Shown: positions 3,001 through 57,714 of the stretch, piece by piece
Numbering within the stretch: the stretch's first letter is position 1
Layout of the letters: the number at the start of each line of letters is the position of its first letter
Source: Ricordea florida
Taxonomy: Eukaryota > Cnidaria > Anthozoa > Corallimorpharia > Ricordeidae
Assembly (NCBI GenBank): GCA_949710005.1
Contig: OX453284.1
Location: 6,115,235 to 6,179,234, forward strand
Direction of reading: 5' to 3'
DNA length: 64,000 nt
Notes under the pieces: generated by a model
The model's input: only the letters and a program-made list of their open reading frames with translations
Database searches by the model: none
What the model was told of the DNA's origin: nothing
Position numbers and translations under genes: made by a program

Positions 3001-3369
3001 TCACCAAAAGGAAAAAAGAATGTTGTGGTCCGCCTAGATCATTTCCGCCCGCAACTGAACAACGTTGATAAGGGTGGGGTGGGGACTGGGGAGAAGGGTC
3101 ATTGTGGCACCAAAGCCCTCCTGGGGTAAGAAGGTAAAAAACTGTTAACACTTTTTGTGCAAAATTGTAGCACAAAGCAAACTATAATTTATGTCCTGAT
3201 TATTTTCCACTTCAGCGACGCAGAGGATCTTGGTGATGGAAGAATCAAACGGACCCTGCGGGTGTCCTGGGGCGAGTTTGTTGGTAAAGGTGCTAACAGC
3301 CGCATAGCGAAAGTTACGGCTGCTAAGTTGGCCCTAAAGAACCTGCAGCTTCCCAAAGACACGTATTAA
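44..3369 (+). CDS. DICER1: Dicer, C-terminal part (RNase IIIa, RNase IIIb, dsRNA-binding domain); 5' end outside window
   Basis: Endoribonuclease that cuts dsRNA and pre-miRNA hairpins into small RNAs. Exons joined by eye: 44-1328, 2513-2684, 2922-2994, 3216-3369; all introns are GT-AG and the phases agree, giving 560 visible residues and a TAA stop. The first exon carries RNase IIIa ([12 protein letters not shown], then ADSVEGLIG) and the start of RNase IIIb ([12 protein letters not shown]). The second exon supplies the other half of the IIIb site ([14 protein letters not shown]), so the acidic metal-binding residues of both sites are present. The last exon is the dsRBD ([10 protein letters not shown]...[13 protein letters not shown]). 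Exon 1 begins after an intron acceptor (ttgtcag, 37-43), so the helicase, PAZ and platform regions lie upstream of the window. The open frame runs past 1328 to 1352, but the donor at 1329 restores homology. Cnidarians can have more than one Dicer; I cannot say which paralogue this is. Confidence 0.96.
1392..1596. mobile_element. MITE with about 48-bp terminal inverted repeats, in a Dicer intron
   Basis: The left end TAGGGAGCTTAAGCACG is repeated inverted at the right end (cgtgcttaagctcccta), and similarity continues inward through a CGAGGACGGCAACC-like block. There is no coding frame. A second element with the same terminal sequence lies at 57789-58163, so this is a dispersed family. Confidence 0.8.
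1701..1832. mobile_element. 132-bp MITE with GG...CC ends and a perfect 8-bp target duplication
   Basis: The arms are about 47 bp, beginning GGATCAATATCAGTTTCTGG on the left and mirrored at the right end with a few mismatches. The flanks at 1693-1700 and 1833-1840 are both gaactgag, an exact 8-bp duplication. A GG terminus with an 8-bp duplication fits Merlin-type or hAT-type non-autonomous elements; the superfamily is inference. Confidence 0.85.
1985..2050 (+). mobile_element. tRNA-like SINE head fragment
   Basis: An A-box-like stretch (ggttagctcagttagtagag) is followed by anticodon-arm-like sequence, but no complete cloverleaf can be closed. It is read as a decayed tRNA-derived SINE head in a Dicer intron, not a functional tRNA gene. 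Confidence 0.5.
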
Positions 3370-5237: not shown

Positions 5238-22124
<16,887 letters not shown>

Positions 22125-22321
22125 TTTGAATGACTTAAAACTTCATTACATAAAATTTAAAGTAAACCTACCGACCTTTCCGCTTGCAAAAAGTGTTAAA
22201 TCATCATCCCCGTACCGCCACGAAAACACAAAATTAGTCAGGCGTTCTTTGCACGTCAGCCTTAAATTGCCAACTTGTTCCTAGGCTTCCGCGCTGTCAC
22301 ACACCACAGATACCCCAGACT

Positions 22322-25584: not shown

Positions 25585-27908
25585 ATGGAGACCCCTTGGG
25601 AGTGAAAGGGTTAAATTTTGCAATTGTTCAGAAATAGGAATAAAGATTAATTTGACAGAAAATGAAAGTAGGTTGTGTTTTTACCCCTGACCCGTACATA
25701 ATATCTTAAGGTGTAATTGTCTTCCACTGACCAAATCACTGGCTAAGAATATTATGACAACAATGGGACTCACAGACAACTTTGATGTATCACCCTTGAG
25801 AACCCTCTCAAGATAAAGCTGTTTGATTTCCCTTTCAAGCCGACTAGGTAATCCAGGGTACATAGTGGAACCACCAGAAAGCACAATATGCTTGTAGAAC
25901 TCTGATCTTGTGTCAATGTCAGCTGCCTGTATTGTGTTGAATAAAAGCTCGGCAACACCGACTCCTTCAATATTTATGAGGTGTGGCTGGAACAGAGCCT
26001 CTGGGGCCTCAAATCGTTCTCCACTCAGCTTCACAACACGTCCATCAGGAAGCTGGGAAAACAGAATAACCATTATTTAGTTTAAGAGTTAAATGCACCA
26101 TGTCTCCAAAGAGAGAGAGAGAGTTGATAATTAAAACAAATTTCTTATCATACATCTGACATATGGTGTATTTTGATCAACACTTACCACATATTGTTCA
26201 ACAAGAACTGTTGTCTCCAAAGCCAACTTCTGTTCTTGCTCGATGTTGTACCTTGAGAAATGGGATATTTGAGAAAGGCATTAGGTTAACATTTGACATA
26301 ATATAACTCCAGACAATAACTGATTAATATAACTTACCCTACATAGCAAAGCTTTTCCTTCATCATACGCACAGTCTCAAAATCAGCTGTGTGATTGAAT
26401 GCATACCCTCTTAGCAGCAGTAGCTTCAAATTAAAAAAACAAAGACATGCCAGCATTTTATGAAACTCCTACCAATCCAGACACAAACAAACAGCAACAA
26501 CAGTACAACATTTCTATAAACATGTTTGCCAGGAACAATTACTAACATGTTTTCTATAACACTTACTACCAACGATATCATAATTTCAAGAGTTCAACGC
26601 TGCTGCATCAAATTCCAGTTGGTAAAAAACCAACAATGGTTAGCTATTCTGTAGAATGTTTATGGATAGATCTTTTATTTGCCTGTTTTGGAAAACTGAC
26701 AAATATCATCTTTCAAAAATTATCAACATTTTCTTTGATTTAATTTAATATGATTTGATTTCACTTGTGCTTTACAGTGTCACCAATTAGTATGTCAGTG
26801 TTGAACACAGTTGGCATTCAAATAAAGGTCTTTCCCATTGGTCATATTCTCACCTGGTTGTTGTACATATATTTTCTGTTTGCTTGTTTGTTTGTTTCTT
26901 TTTTTTTTAACATCCAGTCTAAAATTAAGTAGGGCTAACGAAGGGCTAACGCTCGAAACGTCAGCACCTCCCTTTTACCTTACGGTGGTATAACTTACTT
27001 AATCAACTCGTTTGATTTAGCCAATTTCTTGTGTTAAAATTAAGTAGCCTGCCTAGAATAGCTATGCTAATTGTGGGCTACTATGGTCTCTGTATTGGTT
27101 TTAAAATAAAGTGCATGTTGTTGTTGGAGTAAGAGGGAAACAAAATACATATTTCAGTATAATACTATTCTACTGCTTGAACAACAGACCTTAATAAGGT
27201 ACTTTGTGATATCACGACCAGCAATATCCAGTCTTCTTGTGAGATGTGGCAAGGCAAAGCCTTCATACACTGGACAAATGTGGGTCACTCCATCACCTGA
27301 ATCTATCACTACACCAGTCAGCAGACCTGTAACAGACAACTCCAATGATTCATCATTACAACAAGAAGTCAATCAAAGTATCCATCAATAGTAGTAGTAG
27401 TGGTAGTAGTAGTAGGAGGAGGAGAGTGTTAATAAACAAACGGATGAACTAACCTTGTGCATACAACGTAAGTACTGCTTGTATAGCAATGAACACACCC
27501 TCAAACTGATAGTGCTCAAACATAACCTGTAAAGAGTAAAAAGGCTCAGAGGAAAATACATCCCTGGGATGAAAAGGGTGGAGGGGACCAGCACAATGAA
27601 AGACAGAATGTTCTGTTATTATTATCATTATCATTATTACCAGCACAATGAGGGAAAACTTAAAGTGGGAATATTGCATCTTTCTCAAGGGCAACTTATT
27701 TTGGCTATCATATGGCATAACTGGGGAATAAATGTGACAGGGAGAGAACCTAAACTTGTGACCCTACGTCAAAATGATTACTGTTGTTCACAAGGCCTAT
27801 GGTTTCAGTTTGGTTTTAACCACAAATATTGAAGAGCTACAAGGAACTATTTAAGAAATAGAAAACATGTACCGTGTTTCTATTGAGTTATAGAAACACG
27901 AGTGGAAG

Positions 27909-31974: not shown

Positions 31975-34900
31975 TTATATGGTTTGTGGATATGATGAGT
32001 TCTGTATCTGTACACCTTGGGCAGAATCTGTCTCTTCATCGCTTATACTACTGTTCCTGTTGGTTGAACACCCTAGAAAAAATGGTGCATGTACTTATCA
32101 GCCCAGAAACTCTGCCACAATGTATAGAGCCATATCTATTGGAAGACATGATCATACTCTGACTTCTAACTTTTAACCTCTCTTCCTCATTATTCTAGTT
32201 TAAAATAATGGGATTGTAAAACGAATGTATTTAATTAATGTATTGACAACATATTAAGTTTCTAACAATCACAATAATTAATTTTCAAGTTTAAGTGAGC
32301 ATAGTTTTTTGTTTTTAGCAAGTCAAATGCTTGCATAACCAAAATATCACAACCCTGTGACCCAAATTCTTTCTCCCTCGAACAAATCAGACAGATCCCA
32401 ATCATACTTGAAGGTGAAACTGGAAGTTCTCCTGGCAAAACCATCCAATATGACTATTTAAACCAAATGCCATCTTTACATTACACCATCCCAATTGTGG
32501 AGTGATCACCCCCAATTCAAACTTTTTGACTGGAAATAACAGCAAAAAGCTGGCAAACTGATGCATTCCCAATCAATTGAGTACTGCAGACATTTCAAAG
32601 GTATACTGAATAGGAATTTGCACCCTAAAAAGCCAGTTGAAGCCTTTCAGTACCACTTACCACTTTACCTGGTCGCGCCCAAGTACGGATGAACCCCTCC
32701 TGACACGCCATCACTATACAATCTTCTTTAAATGCCAGAGCTGTTAACCGTTCATTGGCAACTTTCTTAGCTACTAAAGGTTCTAACATGGGTACTTCTT
32801 CCATTCTAGGACACAAAACTGTTCCAGGTGTCACATTTCCAGCATTTACCAAATGCTCAACTGACCTGCTTAAGGAATGCACTTGTGTTAAACTCTTTGG
32901 AGTGTCATAAGAAATTGGTGCAACAGCATTGCCGCTTCCAACATGATTCACCTCATGGGTGATTGGACCATTAGTAACACATTGTGCTGGAGCTGAATAA
33001 GAGTTTGATATCGTGGATGCACGAATGCTTCTGCCACGCGGTCGCTGTGGTTTTAAGACATCTTCACTTAAATCCCACAACATTAGGTTAGTATCTTGTC
33101 CAACAGAACCAAATCTGTATGAAGTAATACTTTTGTCTTCTGTATTTACAGAATTAAAGCCTTGTGGAGATGCAACTCCATTCTGTTCTATTTCTTCTTC
33201 ATCGCTGTCATCAACACGTTCGCCTCCACTTACACTCGTTGTGTAAGGATCAAAAGCAACTACTGTTATCCATGATTGGTGACCCCCACCACGTGCAATG
33301 ACTCTTCGCTCATGAAAACACCAGACTGTAACAAGATCATCCTCACCACCAGTGACTAAGTACTTACCATCAGGACTCCAACACACACATGTCAAACCAC
33401 CAAAATAACTCTTCATCACACCATATAGAGTTTGTGAATCAAAATCAAAAACACGAAGAAAACCATCTTGATTGACTGTTGCAATATGTTTACAGTCTGG
33501 AGAAAAGGTGAACTCATTTATTGAGCCACTGCCAATCATCCATTTACACACTGGGTTGCGTGTTGTCTTGGATTTTCCACTATGTATAGAATATCCTGGT
33601 CCTTGTTTCATTATTGCATATTGTGGGGGACCCACTCCTGCTGGGTGTTCTTTATTGTACACATACATATTTCCACTTTCATGGGCAACTAGAAACAAGT
33701 TCTCAGATCCAGGAATCCACTTGAGACATGTCACCTTTGTTTTGTCCACAAGTCTCTGAAAAATAGTGAAACAAGATTGTGAGAAAAATTCTTAACATAG
33801 TTTGAGGATTACACACACACGCATCTTTTTAAATTGGCTTTCAAGTTTACCTTCTACAAAGAAGAAGGTCAGAATTTGATTGAAATGAATGTAATAGTTT
33901 GAGATCTTTATCATTATGTTGCAGACTACATAGTGTTTTCCTTGAGTAGCCAGCATTTTTGTATATCATCTGGAACATTTCATATTCCATTTGCTGCACA
34001 TGTGTGGTGTCAAAGGTTACAGACAGTACCTTTGTTGAAACTGCCAAGTTTGATACCTCAAACCTTGAAGCTGTGCTGGTTTTATTGATAACTCACCTCT
34101 TCATTGAAAAGTTTGTTGACTTCGTGTTTGACGGGATCAAGCAGTTGTACTTGACCTGCTGAGAACCCAATCAATAGCTCCAAGCTATCAGATGACCTTG
34201 TTAACAGGTTAAAGTCATGACACGTGGGTATGGTCCCTTTGTAAAGGCGCTTGTCAAGTGGCTTTGTAAGGTCAGCAGCCTATAAGTCATTTGTGGCAAA
34301 ATCAAAAAAAAAATAAAGCCACGTACCATTAACTCTATCAAGTCACAGATCATCAACATTTCTTGACCCTGACATTCTCAATAGTGATCATCAAAGAACT
34401 TCTCTTTTCGATAACAATACAATGTAATTAAAGTGCTAAAAAAAAGAACTGAGAAATTGATCTCACACAACATTCTCTAAACTCAAACAACAAAATGTAT
34501 GTCACTCATGCAGGATAAATGCGACTAAGATCTTGTTATCAGGTGCTAATGTTTACCACCAAATGTGACTGTAGGTAACCTTTTTTCCTATTACCCCTCT
34601 TTCATTCCATATTTTAGAATCATCAGGAACTATAAGGTTTCAGATTGCAACAAAACAAACAACAAACAAAAACAAAAAAAACAACTTTATGTGAACGAAT
34701 AACATTACAGAAGCATAACCTGCAATTAGCAAAGCTATTTGAGGTGGGAAAAGGTAAGCAGGGTTTAGAATTACGACTAAAGGCTAACTAATAAGGAAAG
34801 TCCACAATTTATAAATGAGTAAAGTAAAAATTATAATAGATCAGAACTACATAACACAGCAAGGACGAAAGAATGAAACGACTTGAAGAAATAAAAACAA

Positions 34901-47900: not shown

Positions 47901-50900
47901 GGTCTTTATGACGTTTTATCTTTACTCGCTATTTAGTACTGATATATTACGAAAAGGTTGCGTCAGTTAGCAACGTTTTACTGAACGATTTTTCAGCGCC
48001 ATGTTTTCACGAATAATGAGCTCAGGCTCTCAGTTTGTCATGGAAGGAGTCAAAAATCTTGTTGTTGGAAATAAGGTGAGTAATGCCTGGTTTATTACAT
48101 AGTAAACATTTCAATCTGTTCCAGAATGCGGCATTGTGCACGGGTTGTTGCTGTCTCTTCCCAAAGCATCAGACAATGTTTGTTTCAGCGACCTCGGACG
48201 ATCTGTTAGAGCCAAAGGCCAGGAGTTTATTATAATTCTTTTTCATACGAGGAGCCACAATGACGTTGTCGAATCTGCCCCTTTCCAAATTTGTAACTGC
48301 AAACTTACTTCTGCCATGATCACAGCAAGGAGTTTGTTTTGCTCACGAACCCTAGAACGTTACAGCTTCTCGGGACAGGACTCCATCACGTGAGGGAGAG
48401 AGCCACGGGTACTGTAAAGGCCTTAGCGTCTCTAGCTTATTATTCATTCCCAAATACTTTCTAATAATGCACTTTATTATATCTCTCAGTTAGTACGCGC
48501 GCTGTGATAGGTCAATGTAGCGGGACGTACTTTACTGTACGGCTCGCGAAATTCAAAAGTTTGTTTTGAGATATAATAAATATCTTACAAACTTCGTTTT
48601 CTCGGTCTGTACTGTAAGGTACGGATCCTCGTTTTGTCCGCTTGGATTCATGGCCCGCGCGCTTCGCGCTTGGGCCATAAATCCGAGCGGAAAAACTCGG
48701 TCCGTAACTTACAGTACGGACCTCGAACTCGGGTAGTCAGAGTATGTCTTCACTCCCTCCACCCCTTTCCCCCCATTCTCCAAAACCAAAAAGTGGCAAG
48801 TTAGATACGCGCGCCTCAGCTTGCCAATTTTTTTCACCTCCCCCCCCCCCCCCCCCTTGAAGCAGCGATTTCATTGATGGGCTCCTGTTAAAACATCATG
48901 CCATTTCAAAGTATTGTGAAAATATTTCAGGTGATCCCCCGTTTTCCTTATTTTGTTTCGCATATCCCCCCCAAAACCCACCAGCCCCCCCTCCCCTTCT
49001 TCGTAAGAAATGAATCGTCCTTTATCTTATGTTTTTTTCCTTTGTAGTATTTACCTGTTACTCGTATTTTGGATGCCGTAATGGACAACAAGTCAAACCC
49101 GGTGAGCTGTCCATAATTTCGGAACATGTAGTGGGAACTTTCTTAAAGGAGACTAAGAAGCTTGATGGAGATGCTGCCTAAAAGAAACTGGAAATATTTG
49201 TGACAGTGTTAAATGCAATATATAGATTTAGCCAAGCCTAAAAGCGGAGCTCCTCACACAGCCCCTCACACATTGAAAATGCTGTCACTAAAGTTATTAA
49301 ATACGCCTGGTGTACGCAACTACTTAAAGAAGATTCGATAGCTGAAATAAATCGTCCAAAAAAAACATCTAGCTCGCGACTCAACGGAAGAGCCATTGCG
49401 CGAAAAACAAAGCCTCGTTTCGGTTTAAGACCTTCTAAATATCCCGGATGACTATGGCCGCCATGTTGGGGCAACGGACGGGGCAACGTCGTCGTCGTCG
49501 CTAGGCGCACGCGCCCGCGAGCCATGTCGCTAGCCACGGTGACCATGAAAACTCAAACGCATGGTTTTCTCAATTTCTATCCTCGCACGGTAGTTATGGG
49601 GCTCCGCTCTGCGGCTCTTCGAGCCGCTGTGGAGCTCCGCTATAACATTCACTAGTGTAATGTTCTTCAGTTTTATTTAAAATGCTTTGTTACCTAAGCT
49701 GATGTTGGTCATATCGGGAAGTATTGGTACAAGTGAGATGTGATCGTTCCCATATGAGCCGAGCGGTAGAAAACGTATGTGAACAGGGCGTGACTAACAC
49801 GTGTTTACTTTCTCTGTACTAGGAAGTGGAGGATTACAGGTACTTTGACCCGAAGATGCTGCGGGCTACAGATAGGTGAGTTAATGTTGCTGGCGTTTGT
49901 ACAGAAAAAAAAAAACTGCTGAAACTGTATAGTAAAACAATATCACTTTTCCTCTCTTTGCTGGTTTTATTAATATCGACTGAATTGTGAAGCTCAGTTG
50001 ATTGAAAAGATTCATAGGCACAATGCTTTACTGGAGCTCGAAACATGCAACCTTACTTTAATACCGCTTTACAAGAAGTTGTATATAACACTTCTCGTAG
50101 TAAAAAGGCCAACGCATGTCAGCTAAGGCAGGCTGACTTGTTAAAGCTAGGTTAGTTTCAAGTAAAATTAAAAAATGAATCTGGGTAAGGCAACTTTTGG
50201 AAGAATCTTTTCAGAATAACTATTGTAGAAGTTCATAACTATTGTAAAAGTCAATAACTATTGTAGAAGTTAATAACTATTGTAGAAGTTAATATCTATT
50301 ATTATCAAGACACGCGGCCAAATTGAAAACCGCCCTCTTGAAAACACGCGCTTTGCGGGCCGCAAATGACTCCTAGCGGGCCGTTAATGCATTAACGGCC
50401 GTGCAGCTGAGTCCATTGCCTGTGAACGGGAAGACTATTATTTTTTTAAATATAAACTGTCTTTTTGCTAATCATTGTTACCAATCTTTTTAAACTAGAT
50501 TATATTTGACATTTTATTGTAAACAAAAAGGAATTTTATTTGGCTCTTGTTTAGCTGATCGTATTGTAGCAACAACTTTCCATACCATAGTTTCATGCTA
50601 CATCTCTGTTAAACATTTTTTTCTTATTAAATGAATTTGTACGATTTGGCCTTGTGTATTGATAATAATGATAATCACATGACTTCTGTCGGTCATATAG
50701 TTTATTTGTGTCCCTCGTAGCATCATTTGCGCCCTTGCGCTTCGCGCTCGGGCGCAAATGATGCTACTCGGGCCACAAATAAACTATATGCCCTCCAAAA
50801 GTCATGTGATTGTCCTATTGTAGAAGTTAATAAATATTGTAGAAGTTAATAACTATTGTAGAAGTTAATAACCATTGTAGAAGATAATAAATATTGCAGA

Positions 50901-53900
50901 AGTTAATTACTATTGTAGAAGTTTATAACTATTGTAGAAATTAATCAGACCTGCAAGTGCAACTACGTCATAAAATGATTATCTACAGTTTCATCATTTG
51001 ATTTAATTTCAATATTTGTAGAATGATTTACAAGCTGACATGTAGGCATAATATAGTCCCGGTTTCACTGTATTTCCATATCTTCTGTGTTAACCACAGA
51101 AGGCCCAGGTAAAGGGAATTCAACAAAAGGCCGGTAATTCATCATTTCAGTCCCGGATTCTGCTGTACCCACCAGGGTGGGGTGAGTGACACATGTCTCC
51201 GTATAGGGCAGCGTGTCCATTGGTTCAACAGCGTGATCAGGTTCCAATGTGGTAGACCACTGTTGTGACCACGGGAAAGTCAGTCTCATTGTGAAAGGGT
51301 CGTGTTGACTTCCAGAGTGAAAGTTAAACCCGACTGGAGACGCCATGAATTGTGGTGATTCACAGGGAGTAGTGTCCATACGCTCTCCAATAACCTGTGA
51401 ATCAAGTAAGATCTGTGGTTGTTGCGTTTCCATTGCATCTCTGGACCCAGTAAACTTCACCGGGGCGGTGTAAGTGGGATTTGTCTCTGTGAATGGAAGA
51501 GTTTTCATAGGTTCAACATCTGGATCCTTCTGATCATGAACACGAGGTAACTTGAACGCTTGCTGTGGTTCAGTAGAGTATTCTGCCAAAAGCTCTCCAA
51601 ACTCCGCTGAACTCCTCTCGAGCTGCAGACCTGTCTGTTGCACCATAGTCGCCCTTGATCTCGTGGGTATAGCCCTCTTTCTTGGTGCGAGGATTCGTGC
51701 TTTTCTTTGTACTGATGACTGTAGCTCGTCATTACACGCTCTCCTCTTTGCGTCGCCAGGAAAGGGTGTGTCTTCATTGTCAGAATCGCTATCAAGTTCG
51801 CTCATGATAGGAACCAAGGAGGGCTCCAATGTTTGTTGTGGTTCAGTGGAGTATTCGTCAATCAGCCCACCAAACTCCACTGAATTCCTTTCCGTCTGCA
51901 GACCTGTCTGTGGTGTTATGGTCACCCTTGACTTCTTGGGTACAGCTCTTTTTCTTGCTGCGGTGGTACCTTCCTTTCTTTGTACTGTTGACGTTGGCTC
52001 GTTAGTATGCACTCGTCGCTTTGCATTACCAGGGTAGAGTCGGTCCTCGTCGTCAGAACCGCTATCCCCGTGGCTCGGGATGGGAAAGCAAACAGTCTCT
52101 GGTGCTTGCAGTGGTTCCCTCTGGCATGCGTCCAGTACCCCATTAGCAGTCACTACATCCTGCACAGCTTCAGAAGTGCTCTTCTTGTTGTCGTTGTGGT
52201 TATCAAAGTGGTCCGAGATACGAGGAGCTGGTAGCTGTGATGTTTGCAAGGGTTCTCTTTGGTGCGCATCCACTGCCTCGCTGACGGCTGCTAAATCCTT
52301 TACAGCGTGAGAACCTCTCCTCTGAGCAAAAGCCCTCCTGGATCGCCTTTCGGCAGTTTCTTTTCTCACTGTTGTTGTCCTTGGTTTCCTTGTAACAGGT
52401 GGTTCTGGTTCCTCGGTACACGCATGCTTCGTTACGTCACCTGGACCGCTGTCCCCACTGTTGGCAATGATCGCATGATACTCTGGGATAGTAAGTTCTG
52501 TGTGTTCCAACGTCTGTGGTCTGAAGCCTTTGTCATACAGGTCAGGAGTCACTTTTGACGGTCGATTCCGTAACATATCTGCCCCTTCTTTCTCGTAAAC
52601 AGGCCACGTTGTCGTTGCAGCAGTTTCCTGATCCATTTTCATTTCCAACTCTGCTGGCTGGTCATTGCACACACGCTTTCTCCGCGCCTGTTTACAACCG
52701 CTGTATAACAACGCTTCCTCTGCTTTGGAACCACTTTGAAAATGATCCAGTGTAGCAGCTTCGTGACCTCCCACTGTTTGCATTAGCTGGGCAGGATAGC
52801 CGTTGTCTATTCTATGAGTCACTGCTGTTTCTCCTGCAGCATCTGTCTTTGGTACCAGCCGCGCTCCTGTTGTCTCCTGGGAACCTGCCCACTTTCTGCT
52901 TGCAGCATCCTCTGATCTTATTTCCAATGTTTCCTTTGTCTGCGCATTGTATTCCTCCTTCTTAACTTCACCAGAATCTTGGTTGTGATGCAGGCTCTGT
53001 CTTTTATAATCCTTGTCAGTTTTCTCTGGCTCACGAACGGCAGGAGACTCCAGTACCTCTGGTTTGTTGTCAGTAGGGAGCTTGTTGAAAAGCGGTGTCT
53101 CGTGTGCCACAGGCGTCCTAATTGGTTGCGGCATTAATTCTCGTGTGGCAGTCTCGACTTTACTTCGTGAGACAGACAGTGTTTCTCCCTCAGAACCAAA
53201 GGCGGTGCAATTCTTGTGCCTCAGTGTTTCTTGACTGTTAGAGTCTTTGTCGATGACGGTACACGCTGTAAGAGACTCTTTAGACTTTCCGTCTCTTCTC
53301 TGTGGATCTTGAAAGGGGCTGCCTTGTGATAATGCGTAGTCGTGCATCTTTGTATCGACATTAGCAGGTTCCGTCTCCTGTTGATGCACAGTATTTGGGT
53401 CGGTTTCGACTTTTTCTTCTGCAGCACGAATACCACTTTTCAGTGAAGTGTTAGACTGGCTACCTTTTGCTGGTTTATCCTGTCTAACCTGTCTAGCCTG
53501 TTTAACCAGTTTCTGTGGCCCATATCGCTCTTTCTTCCGTTCTACATCTTTGATTATGTCGTTAGCAACAGGAAGAGATGGAACGCCTGTGGCATCGGTC
53601 TTGGTAAATACTTTCTCTTCTTTCTTCAGCTGGCGGAGTTCGCAGTCTTCCTTGCTACAATCAAGATCGATACATCTGTAAACCTCCGAGAACGTTGCAA
53701 CTTTTGTATGGGAACTCTTCATCTTGCGGCTTTTCTCTGACTTGCTATCTGCACATACGTGAATTCCCAAGCCATCTTTTACAACAGGTGTCGTACAGAA
53801 TTTTACTTTGTTTGTGTTTGGAACGTTAACGCGTGGAAGACGCCTCTTAACTTCTCTCAGCTGCAGCTTTCTTTCCTGGATTGCAAAGTCCTTGCATGTT

Positions 53901-56170
53901 TTTGTGGAACTGGCTTTGCAGACATTGCCGAAGACACAAAGTTTACGTCTTGTTGTGTTTTTAAGATGAAGGCATGTTGTTCTCTCTTCGTTAATTACCT
54001 TGTACTCGCCGATGGTTGATGGAGTTATCGGTTTGGCGTGTTTAGCTGGCAATATTGGTAGCCTCCACTTCCAAAACATGGACTCTTTCTCTCTGTCGCA
54101 AGCAGGTTGTCTTAGGACATTTGGCCAAATCGTTGTCTTCTTTGTTACAGGGTCATTTTGCCAATGAGTAGATGTCTCCTTAATCCAATTTGTGTTCCAC
54201 AAACTCGCTCGTACCTGTGATAAGCTCTTACTAGTGTCTTTAAGGTTGAACTCTTTCCGGTGAGCGCTTGCTGTGGTTTGCGTCTTTAAAATCATCTTGA
54301 CATTGCCTTCGGTTGGTGAAGTTAATCGTCTGTTTGTCGTTGACGAAATTGGCATCTTCAATTCAGAAAATTCTAGTCTTTTTGCTGGGATGCTATCGGC
54401 TTCTATTTTGAAGTTAACCTGAAAAGATGTCTTCAGCAACAGACCTCCCACTCGTCTACGCGAGGACCTCTCTTGATTTCCGGTTGTGTTCCACAAGCTC
54501 GGTCTAACCTTTGTCCAGCTTTTTTTGGTGTTTGTTTGCTTCGTCTCGTGCCGCCATGGTTTTTGTTCTTTTTGGCGGTTCTGTTTCCCGCTCTTTGCGT
54601 TGTTTTCATTTTTCGTAAATGCAAAAAAAGCGTTGCGTGAGTACAGGTAAAAGTATTCTAAGCTTTGAAAACTGGGCTTGCGCACTTTCGTTTGCTTCGC
54701 CGACTGACTGAGATCTTCCATGATGACGTCACCTTCGTCGTCCACGAGGTAATCGTAACTATTCGTAACTGTTTCACATCTTCGGAAAGGTGTCGGCATG
54801 TTACTTTTACACATATCGTTAAGAAAACTTGATCCGTGTTTTGATGGCTTTCCGTCGCCTTTTAGTTCCGTTCCCTTGCCACTCCTTCCTTGTGTAAATT
54901 TTTCTCGGCAGGTCTCCTTGTACATCTCGTCTTTGTCGTCTTCATTGCGACTGCAACTGTCATCGTTTTGAGTCGATTCGTTCGACTTTACACTTCCCGC
55001 GCTATGCCATCTTGGGAACCCCCTTCGACCAATCACAGCATGGTATTTAGTCTGCCGCTGAAGCGGCGGTAGATTGGTTACTACTTGAACTCTGGCTTCA
55101 CCACGTGATACCCGGACAAGCGCTCTGCCAGCAGTTGAAACGCTGTAAAGCGAAAATCCGGAGGAAGACAATCTGTTGTATACGGCGACGCAAAACCTCT
55201 TGAAATAAATAAATGTTAACACGGCAATGGTAACAAAAGGAGCTAAAATAAGTATCAAAATTCCGAGAAGACTAACAGAACTTATTGATGAATTTGCCTC
55301 CATCCGCTTTGGATCATCTGAACTTCATTTGGTTTGCGCTGTGTTTGTGACGTGTTTTTGTTGATTTGTGGCGTCGCTTATCGGTTTGTCGGTCGTGTTC
55401 TAAAAGCGTGCGCCATGAGCTTTTGCGCGCGCTACACACATAGAGGATAAATCTCTGTTCACACAGTGCCATTTTAGGTGCACTGCGCATTTGGTTAAAT
55501 TTCTCATATTTTACATGAAGATTTTTTTTTTCAACTACTTGTTAATTACTCTGGCCAATCAAAGAGATGCATACATTCCAATGAACCAATCAGGTCAAAG
55601 TAAATTTATAACTTCTAGTGCGAGAAAACGTGTGCAATCGGGTTTAGTTTTAAAACAGCAACCATTCTAACATTGCTTTGTTTGATCTTTTCATAGTACA
55701 TCGATTCCTCGAAACAAGATGCCTTTCACCGAGGTAACTAATTGCTTGCGTTACGAAATTCGCGAAAAAATTTACATTTCTGAATCAGTTGGTTGTCCTC
55801 TTAACATACGGAACATCCATACACCAACCGGGCTCAATTGCTGACAGGCCCTTAGGGCGAATTTGTGGGTCCACGCGCTTCTAGCAACGAGACAGTATTC
55901 TCCTTGGCGAACGAACGTCTGATAAAAAGCAAAAATTAGGGGGAGCAGGGTTGGCGCAGTGGTGAGAGAGCTCGCCTTCCACCAATGTGTCCCGAGTTCG
56001 ATTCTCGGCTCGGCGTCATATGTGGGCTGAGTTTGTTGGTTCTCTACTCTGCTCCGAGAGATTTTTCTCCGGTTACTCCGGTTTTCCCCTCTCCACGAGA
56101 ACCGACATTTGATTTGATTTGAACTGTTTCGGATGAAGAGCCACTTCATTGTGGAAATGCTGAAATAAAG

Positions 56171-56225
<55 letters not shown>

Positions 56226-57714
56226 ATGTCATTACACCTATTGACGTAATGAAGAAGAAACAGAAACAAACAACAGCATAAAAATCTTGTGTTTAAAGTT
56301 TGGTATTTGTCTTTGACATTTTTTTGTTCCTCGACAGGCCATTGTTTTTGTTGTTGGTGGCGGAAATTACATCGAATACCAGAATCTTATGGACTACACA
56401 AAGGTAAGTTACATTTGAGGTAAAGTTAACAGCATATATATATGTTATTTACCGGGCGGGAGGTCCGTATGGGAAAAAAACTGTGCCCGAGGTCTTGAGT
56501 ACTCAAGACCAAGGGCACAGTTTTTTTCCCATACGGACCGACCTAGACCGGTAAATAACTTATTTACTTTTTCTGTTTGTTTGCTTTTTTTTTCAATTTG
56601 CCGCGAATAGCGCGGATAAAAATCCGGACCGTGGTCCGTATCGTAAAAAGCTGGACCGGTTACGAGCGCGCGATTAGCCAATCAGATTGGAGGATTTGGG
56701 ATTCCGGCCCGCTGAGATGCTTCAGAAAAAAATAAATATATGTTATTTACCGGGCGGGAGGTCCGTATGGGAAAAAACTGTGCCCGAGGTCTTGAGTACT
56801 CAAGACCAAGGGCACAGTTTTTTTCCCATACGGACCGACCTAGACCGGTAAATAACTTATTTACTTTTTCTGTTTGTTTGCTTTTTTTTTCAATTTGCCG
56901 CGAATAGCGCGGATAAAAATCCGGACCGTGGTCCGTATCGTAAAAAGCTGGACCGGTTACGAGCGCGCGATTAGCCAATCAGATTGGAGGATTTGGGATT
57001 CCGGCCCGCTGAGATGCTTCAGAAAAAAATAAAATAACTTATTTCCCGGTGTAATCGTACATATTATATAGTATACTAAATACTTCATGCCAGTGGGACT
57101 TGTCATTTCCATCTAATTGTGGACAGAATACAGCGTGATCACTCGAGATTTTTCCGCTTGACATGTCTCCACATAATTGTACAAACTAGCTGTCAGCTCT
57201 TTGAAAACTACACAGTTCTATAAAGGCAGTATGTTTGGTTGGTTTTCAGAGACATTCTGGTGCTAAGAAAGTTCTCTATGGAGCCAGTGAAGTAATGAAT
57301 GCAGCTCAGTTCCTTAAACAGGTTGGTCTGACAGATATATAGCTTTACACGTTGAAACACTCAGTTAAGTTTAAAATAGAAGAAATTGGGATAATCAAAC
57401 AAATTAAGTAAGTTATACCACCGTAAGGTGAAAGGGAGGTGCTAACGTTTCGAGCGTTAGCCCTTCGTTAGAGCGAATGATTCTATCAATTTGATTGATT
57501 ATTCCAATTTCTTGTGTTTCAATTCCCCACCGACACAGCACCAATTTCTTTAGAAACTACCCCCACAATATAATTTTAAAATAGTCCTTGTTAAGTATTG
57601 GTGTTGTTCTTAAACGTTTTACTCATGATTAGTCGGTGCCATACAATGTGTTTTTCATCGACGCTTTGTTTTGTCATCCTGCAGTTATCACACCTTGGTG
57701 CAGAACCATCTTAG
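37606..57714 (+). CDS. SCFD1: Sec1 family domain-containing protein 1 (Sly1), complete, 26 exons, 640 aa
   Basis: SM protein that binds syntaxin-5-type SNAREs and promotes ER-Golgi vesicle fusion (family knowledge). Exons: 37606-37636, 37868-37938, 38226-38314, 38703-38793, 39265-39387, 39895-39982, 40372-40461, 40996-41051, 41140-41222, 41592-41691, 42739-42890, 43660-43750, 43992-44068, 44310-44391, 45250-45309, 45983-46019, 46885-46952, 47078-47157, 47373-47435, 47997-48075, 49048-49101, 49823-49875, 55697-55733, 56338-56403, 57250-57321, 57685-57714. All GT-AG with consistent phase; 640 aa versus about 642 in mammals. Diagnostic blocks: [35 protein letters not shown] with [47 protein letters not shown]. 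Intron 22 (49876-55696) contains a complete gene on the other strand. Confidence 0.97.
39035..39115 (+). mobile_element. tRNA-derived SINE head
   Basis: cctgtagctcagtgatagag is followed by an anticodon-like region (gaactagtaatct) and a B-box-like ttgactcctattgg. The anticodon stem no longer pairs well. It is in SCFD1 intron 4 (38794-39264). Confidence 0.65.
39416..39572. mobile_element. MITE with inverted repeats starting atgttgtaggttaaa
   Basis: The left atgttgtaggttaaaatggt, aaactagtttcctttg is mirrored by caaagcaaactag, accatttttaacc and gtttaacctacaacat. It is related in its terminal tgttgta sequence to 44925-45061 and 60512-60653. It lies in SCFD1 intron 5 (39388-39894). Confidence 0.8.
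41891..42193. mobile_element. Two abutting palindromic elements
   Basis: 41891-41995 is a hairpin with ends aacaattagaccc / gggtctaattgtt and a cgaagccgaa loop between copies of caatagcccat. Immediately after, 41996-42193 has TIRs ttagtatcacccaactagt / actagttgggtgatactaa. Its right end includes aatcagattgcggcatttgc, also found at 8579. Both are in SCFD1 intron 10 (41692-42738). Confidence 0.8.
43031..43650 (-). pseudogene. 5'-truncated LINE reverse-transcriptase C-terminus, with stops
   Basis: The minus-strand frame contains blocks typical of the region after the RT catalytic domain of LINEs: [49 protein letters not shown] and [12 protein letters not shown]. After the TTW block (about 43160) a TGA interrupts the frame and a TAA follows about 30 codons later; the last recognisable block is CATRHKGD, near the family's usual end. 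It lacks the catalytic YxDD region and all upstream domains, so it is dead. It lies in SCFD1 intron 11 (42891-43659), with its 3' end towards that intron's start. Confidence 0.85.
44452..44740. mobile_element. Fold-back MITE family, longest copy
   Basis: Both halves carry aagttataccacc...aaggtaaaaggga and tcgagcgttagcccttcgtt in opposite orientation (right half ctaacactcgaaatgtcagc, ccttttaccttacggtggta). A short internal tandem (gttgagcgttagc, about three copies) sits at the centre. It lies in SCFD1 intron 14 (44392-45249). Confidence 0.82.
44925..45061. mobile_element. MITE with about 50-bp TIRs (family of 60512-60653)
   Basis: The left tgttgtagttcagttttttc, cttggttcaaattttatttt is mirrored at the right by ttaaaccaaggaaaaaattg and aactacaacata. 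It is in the same SCFD1 intron as the previous element. Confidence 0.85.
45745..45905. repeat. Fold-back repeat, best copy of a family
   Basis: The arms gtccaatttggtctgcaatc and gattacagaccgaattggac are near-perfect inverses, with inner arms aatcggactcc / ggatgac-type remnants. Diverged relatives lie at 23440-23600 and perhaps 46500-46590 (caatttgggctgaaatcata against its inverse). It is in SCFD1 intron 15. Confidence 0.75.
46080..46195 (+). repeat. Dispersed repeat, copy 2 (first copy 30960-31075)
   Basis: Collinear with the intergenic copy over about 115 bp, with many substitutions. It lies in SCFD1 intron 16 (46020-46884), which is otherwise AT-rich and featureless. Confidence 0.65.
48605..48722. 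repeat. GC-rich hairpin with a gcgcttcgcgc loop
   Basis: The arms around ggtctgtactgtaaggtacg, gtccgcttggattcatggcc are mirrored by ggccataaatccgagcggaa and aacttacagtacgga. The loop region is cgcgcgcttcgcgcttg. It is in SCFD1 intron 20 (48076-49047), which also has a 20-base run of C near 48840. Confidence 0.8.
50217..50945. repeat. 19-bp tandem array split by inserted sequence containing a long hairpin
   Basis: The unit aactattgtagaagttaat repeats about four times at 50217-50300 and about seven times at 50815-50945. The 500 bp between holds a GC-rich palindrome (taatgcattaacggccg region, 50370-50405) and a 140-bp hairpin (50672-50812; arms aatcacatgac...catatagtttatttgtg mirrored, loop gcgcttcgcgc). 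The arrangement suggests an array interrupted by later insertion. It is in SCFD1 intron 22. Confidence 0.8.
51065..55303 (-). CDS. Intronless 1412-aa protein, N-terminal membrane anchor, repetitive and charged; family not recognised
   Basis: One uninterrupted 4239-nt frame on the strand opposite SCFD1, wholly inside SCFD1 intron 22. I do not recognise the family. Residues about 9-34 form a single hydrophobic segment ([20 protein letters not shown]) followed by basic residues, so a single-pass membrane protein with a long internal or lumenal tail is likely. Most of the rest is Lys/Arg/Ser/Thr/Glu-rich and looks disordered. Two related segments contain VRPSLWNT and VRASLWNT (about residues 267 and 366). 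The C-terminal third has degenerate repeats of about 90 residues: blocks like [19 protein letters not shown] and [19 protein letters not shown], followed by [10 protein letters not shown] or [10 protein letters not shown] and then TGLQxERxSxEFG. Shorter motifs near the end read [10 protein letters not shown] and [10 protein letters not shown]. The ATG at 55303 is first in frame and precedes the hydrophobic segment. No splice-like breaks are needed. Confidence 0.8.
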   Translation of the reverse strand: MEANSSISSVSLLGILILILAPFVTIAVLTFIYFKRFCVAVYNRLSSSGFSLYSVSTAGRALVRVSRGEARVQVVTNLPPLQRQTKYHAVIGRRGFPRWHSAGSVKSNESTQNDDSCSRNEDDKDEMYKETCREKFTQGRSGKGTELKGDGKPSKHGSSFLNDMCKSNMPTPFRRCETVTNSYDYLVDDEGDVIMEDLSQSAKQTKVRKPSFQSLEYFYLYSRNAFFAFTKNENNAKSGKQNRQKEQKPWRHETKQTNTKKSWTKVRPSLWNTTGNQERSSRRRVGGLLLKTSFQVNFKIEADSIPAKRLEFSELKMPISSTTNRRLTSPTEGNVKMILKTQTTASAHRKEFNLKDTSKSLSQVRASLWNTNWIKETSTHWQNDPVTKKTTIWPNVLRQPACDREKESMFWKWRLPILPAKHAKPITPSTIGEYKVINEERTTCLHLKNTTRRKLCVFGNVCKASSTKTCKDFAIQERKLQLREVKRRLPRVNVPNTNKVKFCTTPVVKDGLGIHVCADSKSEKSRKMKSSHTKVATFSEVYRCIDLDCSKEDCELRQLKKEEKVFTKTDATGVPSLPVANDIIKDVERKKERYGPQKLVKQARQVRQDKPAKGSQSNTSLKSGIRAAEEKVETDPNTVHQQETEPANVDTKMHDYALSQGSPFQDPQRRDGKSKESLTACTVIDKDSNSQETLRHKNCTAFGSEGETLSVSRSKVETATRELMPQPIRTPVAHETPLFNKLPTDNKPEVLESPAVREPEKTDKDYKRQSLHHNQDSGEVKKEEYNAQTKETLEIRSEDAASRKWAGSQETTGARLVPKTDAAGETAVTHRIDNGYPAQLMQTVGGHEAATLDHFQSGSKAEEALLYSGCKQARRKRVCNDQPAELEMKMDQETAATTTWPVYEKEGADMLRNRPSKVTPDLYDKGFRPQTLEHTELTIPEYHAIIANSGDSGPGDVTKHACTEEPEPPVTRKPRTTTVRKETAERRSRRAFAQRRGSHAVKDLAAVSEAVDAHQREPLQTSQLPAPRISDHFDNHNDNKKSTSEAVQDVVTANGVLDACQREPLQAPETVCFPIPSHGDSGSDDEDRLYPGNAKRRVHTNEPTSTVQRKEGTTAARKRAVPKKSRVTITPQTGLQTERNSVEFGGLIDEYSTEPQQTLEPSLVPIMSELDSDSDNEDTPFPGDAKRRACNDELQSSVQRKARILAPRKRAIPTRSRATMVQQTGLQLERSSAEFGELLAEYSTEPQQAFKLPRVHDQKDPDVEPMKTLPFTETNPTYTAPVKFTGSRDAMETQQPQILLDSQVIGERMDTTPCESPQFMASPVGFNFHSGSQHDPFTMRLTFPWSQQWSTTLEPDHAVEPMDTLPYTETCVTHPTLVGTAESGTEMMNYRPFVEFPLPGPSVVNTEDMEIQ
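55938..56224 (+). mobile_element. tRNA-derived SINE with (ATT)n tail
   Basis: The head ggttggcgcagtggtgagag with B-box-like gagttcgattctcgg is followed by a body (gtgggctgagtttgttggtt, tccggttactccggttttcc) and the end ctgaaataaagtc plus an ATT run to 56224. It is an intact-looking plus-strand SINE in SCFD1 intron 23 (55734-56337). Confidence 0.88.
56443..57036. repeat. Near-perfect tandem duplication of a 298-bp hairpin-containing element
   Basis: Copy 1 (56443-56740) and copy 2 (56741-57036) appear identical apart from homopolymer length and the extreme end. Each starts with a hairpin (arms tgttatttaccgggcgggag...ggtccgtatggg and inverse; loop around gaggtcttgagtactcaaga) and ends gcttcagaaaaaaataaa. 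The 78- and 98-codon minus frames inside are shadows of the repeat. A diverged single copy is at 5561-5850. It lies in SCFD1 intron 24 (56404-57249). Confidence 0.92.
57382..57565. mobile_element. Fold-back MITE, copy of the 44452-44740 family
   Basis: Contains aagttataccaccgtaaggt, aaagggaggtgctaacgttt and cgagcgttagcccttcgtta, and ends in a block around cgacacagcaccaatttctt. It lies in the last SCFD1 intron (57322-57684). Confidence 0.78.

Follow-up and report, generated by a model that had tools for sequence, protein, structure and literature searches.

The question raised by this locus is whether a long open frame lying inside an intron of SCFD1 is a gene in its own right and, if so, of what kind and of what origin. 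In the present study, we analysed a window of 64,000 nucleotides from Ricordea florida, in which a frame of 4239 nt runs antisense within a 5821-nt intron of SCFD1/Sly1 (49876-55696) and lies wholly inside it (Table 1). The limits of the intron were accepted because the three exons listed, when joined, give a 52-aa translation that matches yeast Sly1 (1mqs, E 5.2e-09). The same piece reached E 2e-05 and 24.5 bits against the Pfam Sec1 model, below the cut-off of 30.7, the query being short. The sequence-only reading, which had reported a clean start and an open frame of this length opposite SCFD1 in a 5.8-kb intron, was therefore right on both points, and an ATG stands at the 5' end of the frame. 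The explanation that we prefer, and hold to be probable, is that of a functional single-exon gene nested antisense in the SCFD1 intron and belonging, with one other intact member, to a small family.

Table 1. Positions in the window of the nested gene, its host exons and its sequence features
Feature	Position	Strand	Remark
Window gene, single-exon ORF	51065..55303	-	ATG start, 1412 aa + stop
SCFD1 exon left of the intron	49823..49875	+	by eye, GT...AG borders
SCFD1 exon right of the intron	55697..55733	+	by eye, GT...AG borders
Next SCFD1 exon	56338..56403	+	by eye, GT...AG borders
Possible poly(A) signal AATAAA	50701..50706	-	~358 nt past the stop
5' flank alignable with the C13:6.370 Mb copy (L010)	55304..55477	-	with the C15 relative (L009) to 55430 only; 5' UTR or proximal promoter
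Hydrophobic segment, aa 12-34, predicted membrane helix	55202..55270	-	hydropathy
Juxtamembrane motif CVAVYxxLS, aa 38-46	55166..55192	-	conserved, alignment of two sequences
Motif GD[VI]IM[EK]DLS, aa 191-199	54707..54733	-	conserved, alignment of two sequences
Internal repeat of 273 bp, 2.1 copies, in frame	51558..52117	-	
C-terminal repeat, first copy	51458..51526	-	BLASTN
C-terminal repeat, second copy	51170..51238	-	BLASTN
Tract shared with the broken copy in L2HGDH (L008)	51444..51958	-	515 nt, one mismatch

Besides the AATAAA of Table 1, an ATTAAA stands ~57 nt past the stop. The transcript would be polyadenylated at a site of its own within the SCFD1 intron. Transcription would start at a promoter belonging to the gene itself and close to the ATG, where the nearest part of the 5' flank is common to the copies described below. 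The CpG observed/expected ratio is 1.06-1.35 across 54 to 57.5 kb, around the 5' end of the gene, and since it is likewise raised at 48.5-50.5 kb (1.03-1.12), it marks no promoter. Just downstream of the ORF, one 19-bp unit forms two arrays (50215-50300 and 50815-50945) on either side of a ~500-bp stretch, which is perhaps an insertion into one array. Another repeat (56434-57049), which follows the third SCFD1 exon on its right side, consists of 2.1 copies of a 297-bp unit with 98% matches and looks like a recent tandem duplication. Other genes are also represented in the window. These include a piece with two RNase III domains at 3-1349, which we take to be probably Dicer, and an exon with RWD and CCCH zinc-finger domains on the minus strand at 20697-22142, which we assume is perhaps DHX57; it lies near ORFs that appear helicase-like by eye, of which 19381-19608 matched no family. 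An actin-family exon on the minus strand (25684-26076) is, on our assumption, perhaps Arp2, and on the same strand the stretch at 32628-33791 stays open for 388 codons and matches WD40. Finally, an open stretch at 43169-43681 matches DUF6451 with 27.6 bits, just under the cut-off of 28, and by eye resembles a retroelement piece.

As the sequence-only reading had proposed, no known family was found for the product, which matched 0 families in Pfam and NCBIfam and no PDB entry; its intact relative on contig C15 also matched 0 families in Pfam. Large protein searches, run with no positive control, scored 0 relatives among 7620 (E<=0.001), 6082 and 773 (E<=0.1) candidates. Animal genomes are probably thinly represented in the protein collection searched, hence this absence of relatives does not establish lineage restriction. 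In the rest of the window, tblastn of the product gave one match, at the chance level of E 2.1. Relatives were obtained from the own genome of the organism. One search over 538 Mb in 48 contigs, with 14 candidates scored, gave 7 matches falling at at least four loci, two of them intact and two broken, and coming from one search these counts are lower bounds. A lone gene was thereby rejected.

The first locus is the window gene itself (C13:6.166 Mb). The second, at C15:1.2296 Mb on the plus strand, is intact and intronless, codes for 753 aa from an ATG, and its product is 34% identical to that of the window gene over the alignment. On one side it is flanked by a SUEL-lectin exon (E 6e-19) and on the other by a CUB exon (E 3.1e-21); these two exons are probably parts of one gene and are encoded on the minus strand, so that the copy is antisense to them. 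The third, at C13:6.922 Mb on the minus strand, is broken and retains no more than its 3' part, which is spread over three different frames; it stops where exactly 5000 N follow (L008:3478-8477), so that its 5' part is unreadable. This copy lies between the last and an early exon of L2HGDH, on the same strand as its host. Both flanking exon pieces match 8w75 (E 1.2e-23 and 6.6e-11), and their best NCBIfam model is L-2-hydroxyglutarate oxidase, under the whole-protein cut-off. Around this copy we sought eight motif patterns of L2HGDH; three of the eight were found, at both protein ends, and none of the five for the middle, which were perhaps missed owing to the N run or to exon borders. The fourth locus (C13:6.370 Mb, plus strand) is a 5' fragment whose frame is interrupted by a stop; it retains the 5' flank and has 67% DNA identity over 629 columns. 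Judged by these sequences, the window gene is a member of a small and fast-changing family with no match to a known one, and the earlier proposal of a fast-evolving gene is supported.

For the spread of this family, we presume DNA-based duplication, and we prefer it weakly because the broken fragment at C13:6.370 Mb is a 5' fragment keeping its upstream flank. The sequence-only reading had suggested a retrocopy, in which the spliced mRNA of a multi-exon parent was reverse-transcribed and then diverged. The intronless state of the gene agrees with such an origin, and so does the 5' flank, where, in three pairwise comparisons, the copies become alignable 126-175 bp before the ATG, much as if a transcript started there. 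However, the limit of this homology also fits a proximal promoter, or simply the loss of similarity further out, and at this divergence the decay of unconstrained flanks would end the homology there too. The one search of the own genome brought up no parent with introns among its seven matches, the stretch from the stop to the SCFD1 exon contains no run of more than 7 A, and the fragment with a 5' end and without a 3' part is the reverse of the usual 5' truncation. The suggestion thus went unsupported, and we consider a retrocopy unlikely.

It would be more improbable that the frame belongs to a domesticated or still mobile element and happens to sit in introns. Its presence at four loci, together with the lack of introns, would suit such an element, and so would the placing of these loci, since two have exons of known host genes on either side and a third is flanked by exons that probably make up one gene. 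Against it, no transposase, reverse transcriptase, integrase or capsid was detected by Pfam in the window product and its relative, or by NCBIfam in the window product, and among 178 pattern stretches in viral contigs none was a relative. Furthermore, an element would be expected in many copies, and just four loci, as a lower bound, were seen in 538 Mb.

The coding state of the frame was judged by its codons and by its relatives. On base composition alone, the chance of a 4239-nt frame staying open is about 9e-35, and the other five frames carry 43 to 84 stops, with a longest open run of 165 codons. The codon score in frame is 0.228 bits/codon; 500 base shuffles gave 0.046 +/- 0.015, and none of the other five frames of the ORF exceeded 0.11. 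The relative synonymous codon usage (RSCU) of the gene and of the host exons correlates at 0.80, the host set comprising 1319 codons drawn from three exons in the window. These host exons score 0.19-0.29, a circular value, as the same exons trained the score; the C15 relative, which is outside the training set, scores 0.220. On the sense strand of the ORF there are 0 poly(A) signals and 0 splice donors, but synonymous permutation (P 0.146 and 0.230, respectively) gave no signal of depletion for either, and the C15 relative showed no depletion of them as well.

For the selection analysis, dN/dS was computed by our own NG86 script with a bootstrap over codons, leaving out gapped codons and stops. 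Between the window gene and the C15 relative, the ratio was 0.535 (95% CI 0.41-0.68; 507 codons). Against the broken copy in L2HGDH, with a near-identical tract left out, it was 0.647 (0.49-0.88; 290 codons), and against the broken fragment at C13:6.370 Mb it was 0.75, with an interval that includes 1 (0.46-1.23; 106 codons). Between the copies of the 273-bp internal repeat it was 0.49 (0.24-0.93; 78 codons). In a frame control on the nucleotide alignment with the L2HGDH copy, again without the tract, the true frame gave the lowest value, 0.59 (0.44-0.76), the other two forward frames 1.01 and 1.02, and the reverse frames 1.03, 0.82 and 0.69 (0.49-0.94), so that one reverse frame was also below 1. 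On three sequences (167 and 81 codons), the IQ-TREE codon models favoured default GY over GY{1.0}, the gain being 4.2 and 1.8 log units; we left this comparison out of the evidence on selection. The ratio obtained with the diverged intact relative shows purifying selection, and values of 0.5-0.65 indicate a weak constraint.

By its host-exon-like codon score and its intact, diverged, intronless relative with a dN/dS of this size, the ORF is coding, as the sequence-only reading had argued, and a chance ORF was rejected on composition, codon score and dN/dS. That the frame has no protein function, and has stayed open by chance or next to a regulatory antisense RNA, is hardly credible: the weakness of the constraint would suit it, but the composition odds, the host-like codons and the constrained relative all oppose it.

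Returning to the nested gene that we prefer, the product has pI 8.9, a GRAVY of -0.86 and one hydrophobic stretch, near the N-terminus, so that the hydrophobic segment noted earlier was confirmed by hydropathy. The membrane topology of a protein follows from the charges flanking its helix by the positive-inside rule. A single acidic residue (E2) precedes the segment and K35 R36 follow it, from which an N-out/C-in topology is predicted. The C15 relative keeps the hydrophobic stretch at pI 5.6, hence basic charge is not a family trait. In a structure model of this relative, built on a two-sequence alignment, a helix at 6-49 (ten-residue block averages 61-89 pLDDT) is the only confident part, and 703 of the 753 residues are below 50; too few relatives would give the same low values. 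The product is therefore predicted to be one N-terminal membrane helix with a long disordered tail, that is, a single-pass membrane protein with its N-terminus outside and a disordered cytosolic tail of ~1375 aa. At the juxtamembrane codons, 13 bases are identical with synonymous sites included (window 55182-55194, L009:4252 and L010:3995); they overlap the CVAVYxxLS motif, and the three copies are otherwise diverged. Besides the 273-bp repeat, two weaker same-frame repeat pairs were detected in the ORF by BLASTN. Of the structured internal repeats that had been proposed, the repeats are present, and they are probably not structured, since the model of the C15 relative is of low confidence outside the N-terminal helix. 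The tail may have grown partly by in-frame duplication of short units with basic clusters and PMDT-type motifs, and it could act as a membrane-tethered docking scaffold in which the repeats would be binding sites.

The near-identical tract shared with the broken copy in L2HGDH is bordered by differences at ORF nt 3345 and 3861. Outside it, identity is 67% with gaps counted (391 differences in 1193 columns, of which 67 are gaps), and blocks of 60 columns are 47-82% identical. In its simplest reading, the tract is probably a recent gene conversion; it could be an assembly error, which is conceivable because the broken copy borders the N run. A bolder reading, to which we would give a slender chance, is that of an orphan animal family that lives in the introns of unrelated hosts on either strand and exchanges sequence between introns 0.76 Mb apart, a broken copy donating repeat variants to an intact membrane-scaffold gene. 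In that case the family would bear some likeness to a cassette system.

The human genes EVI2A and EVI2B code for membrane proteins of the single-pass type. Like these two and OMG in human NF1, the window gene would be an independent protein gene within an intron, on the strand opposite to its host; unlike them, it is a single-exon gene of a family with no known match, with relatives in the introns of other hosts. According to PMC4394429, about 1% of the genes in human and 10% of those in Drosophila are nested, and two-thirds are antisense. In PMC13044578, the 'dark' gene families of stony corals are genes without ascribable function and often lineage-specific. The window gene is like them in that its function is not ascribable; in contrast to it, the families selected there are well conserved. 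SAFB proteins, according to PMC10901741, silence long, A-rich, intronless intronic units, with 33% A named, and bind L1 and Tigger units on the strand of the host while avoiding antisense ones. The window gene is similarly long and intronless, with 33.1% A on its sense strand, but it lies on the minus strand and SCFD1 on the plus strand. Moreover, GAAGAA is not enriched in it (3 seen, as against 2.9 in base shuffles and 3.75 by synonymous permutation).

Overall, the gene family is genuine and matches no known kind, and the nested arrangement itself is already known. The window gene is well supported as protein-coding, and annotation could overlook it, given its intronic position and the lack of any relative in the protein searches made here. 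As one genome holds an intact relative, two broken copies and a tract that looks converted, the gene lends itself to studying how genes that match no known kind originate, lengthen through repeats and survive within a host gene that is itself transcribed.
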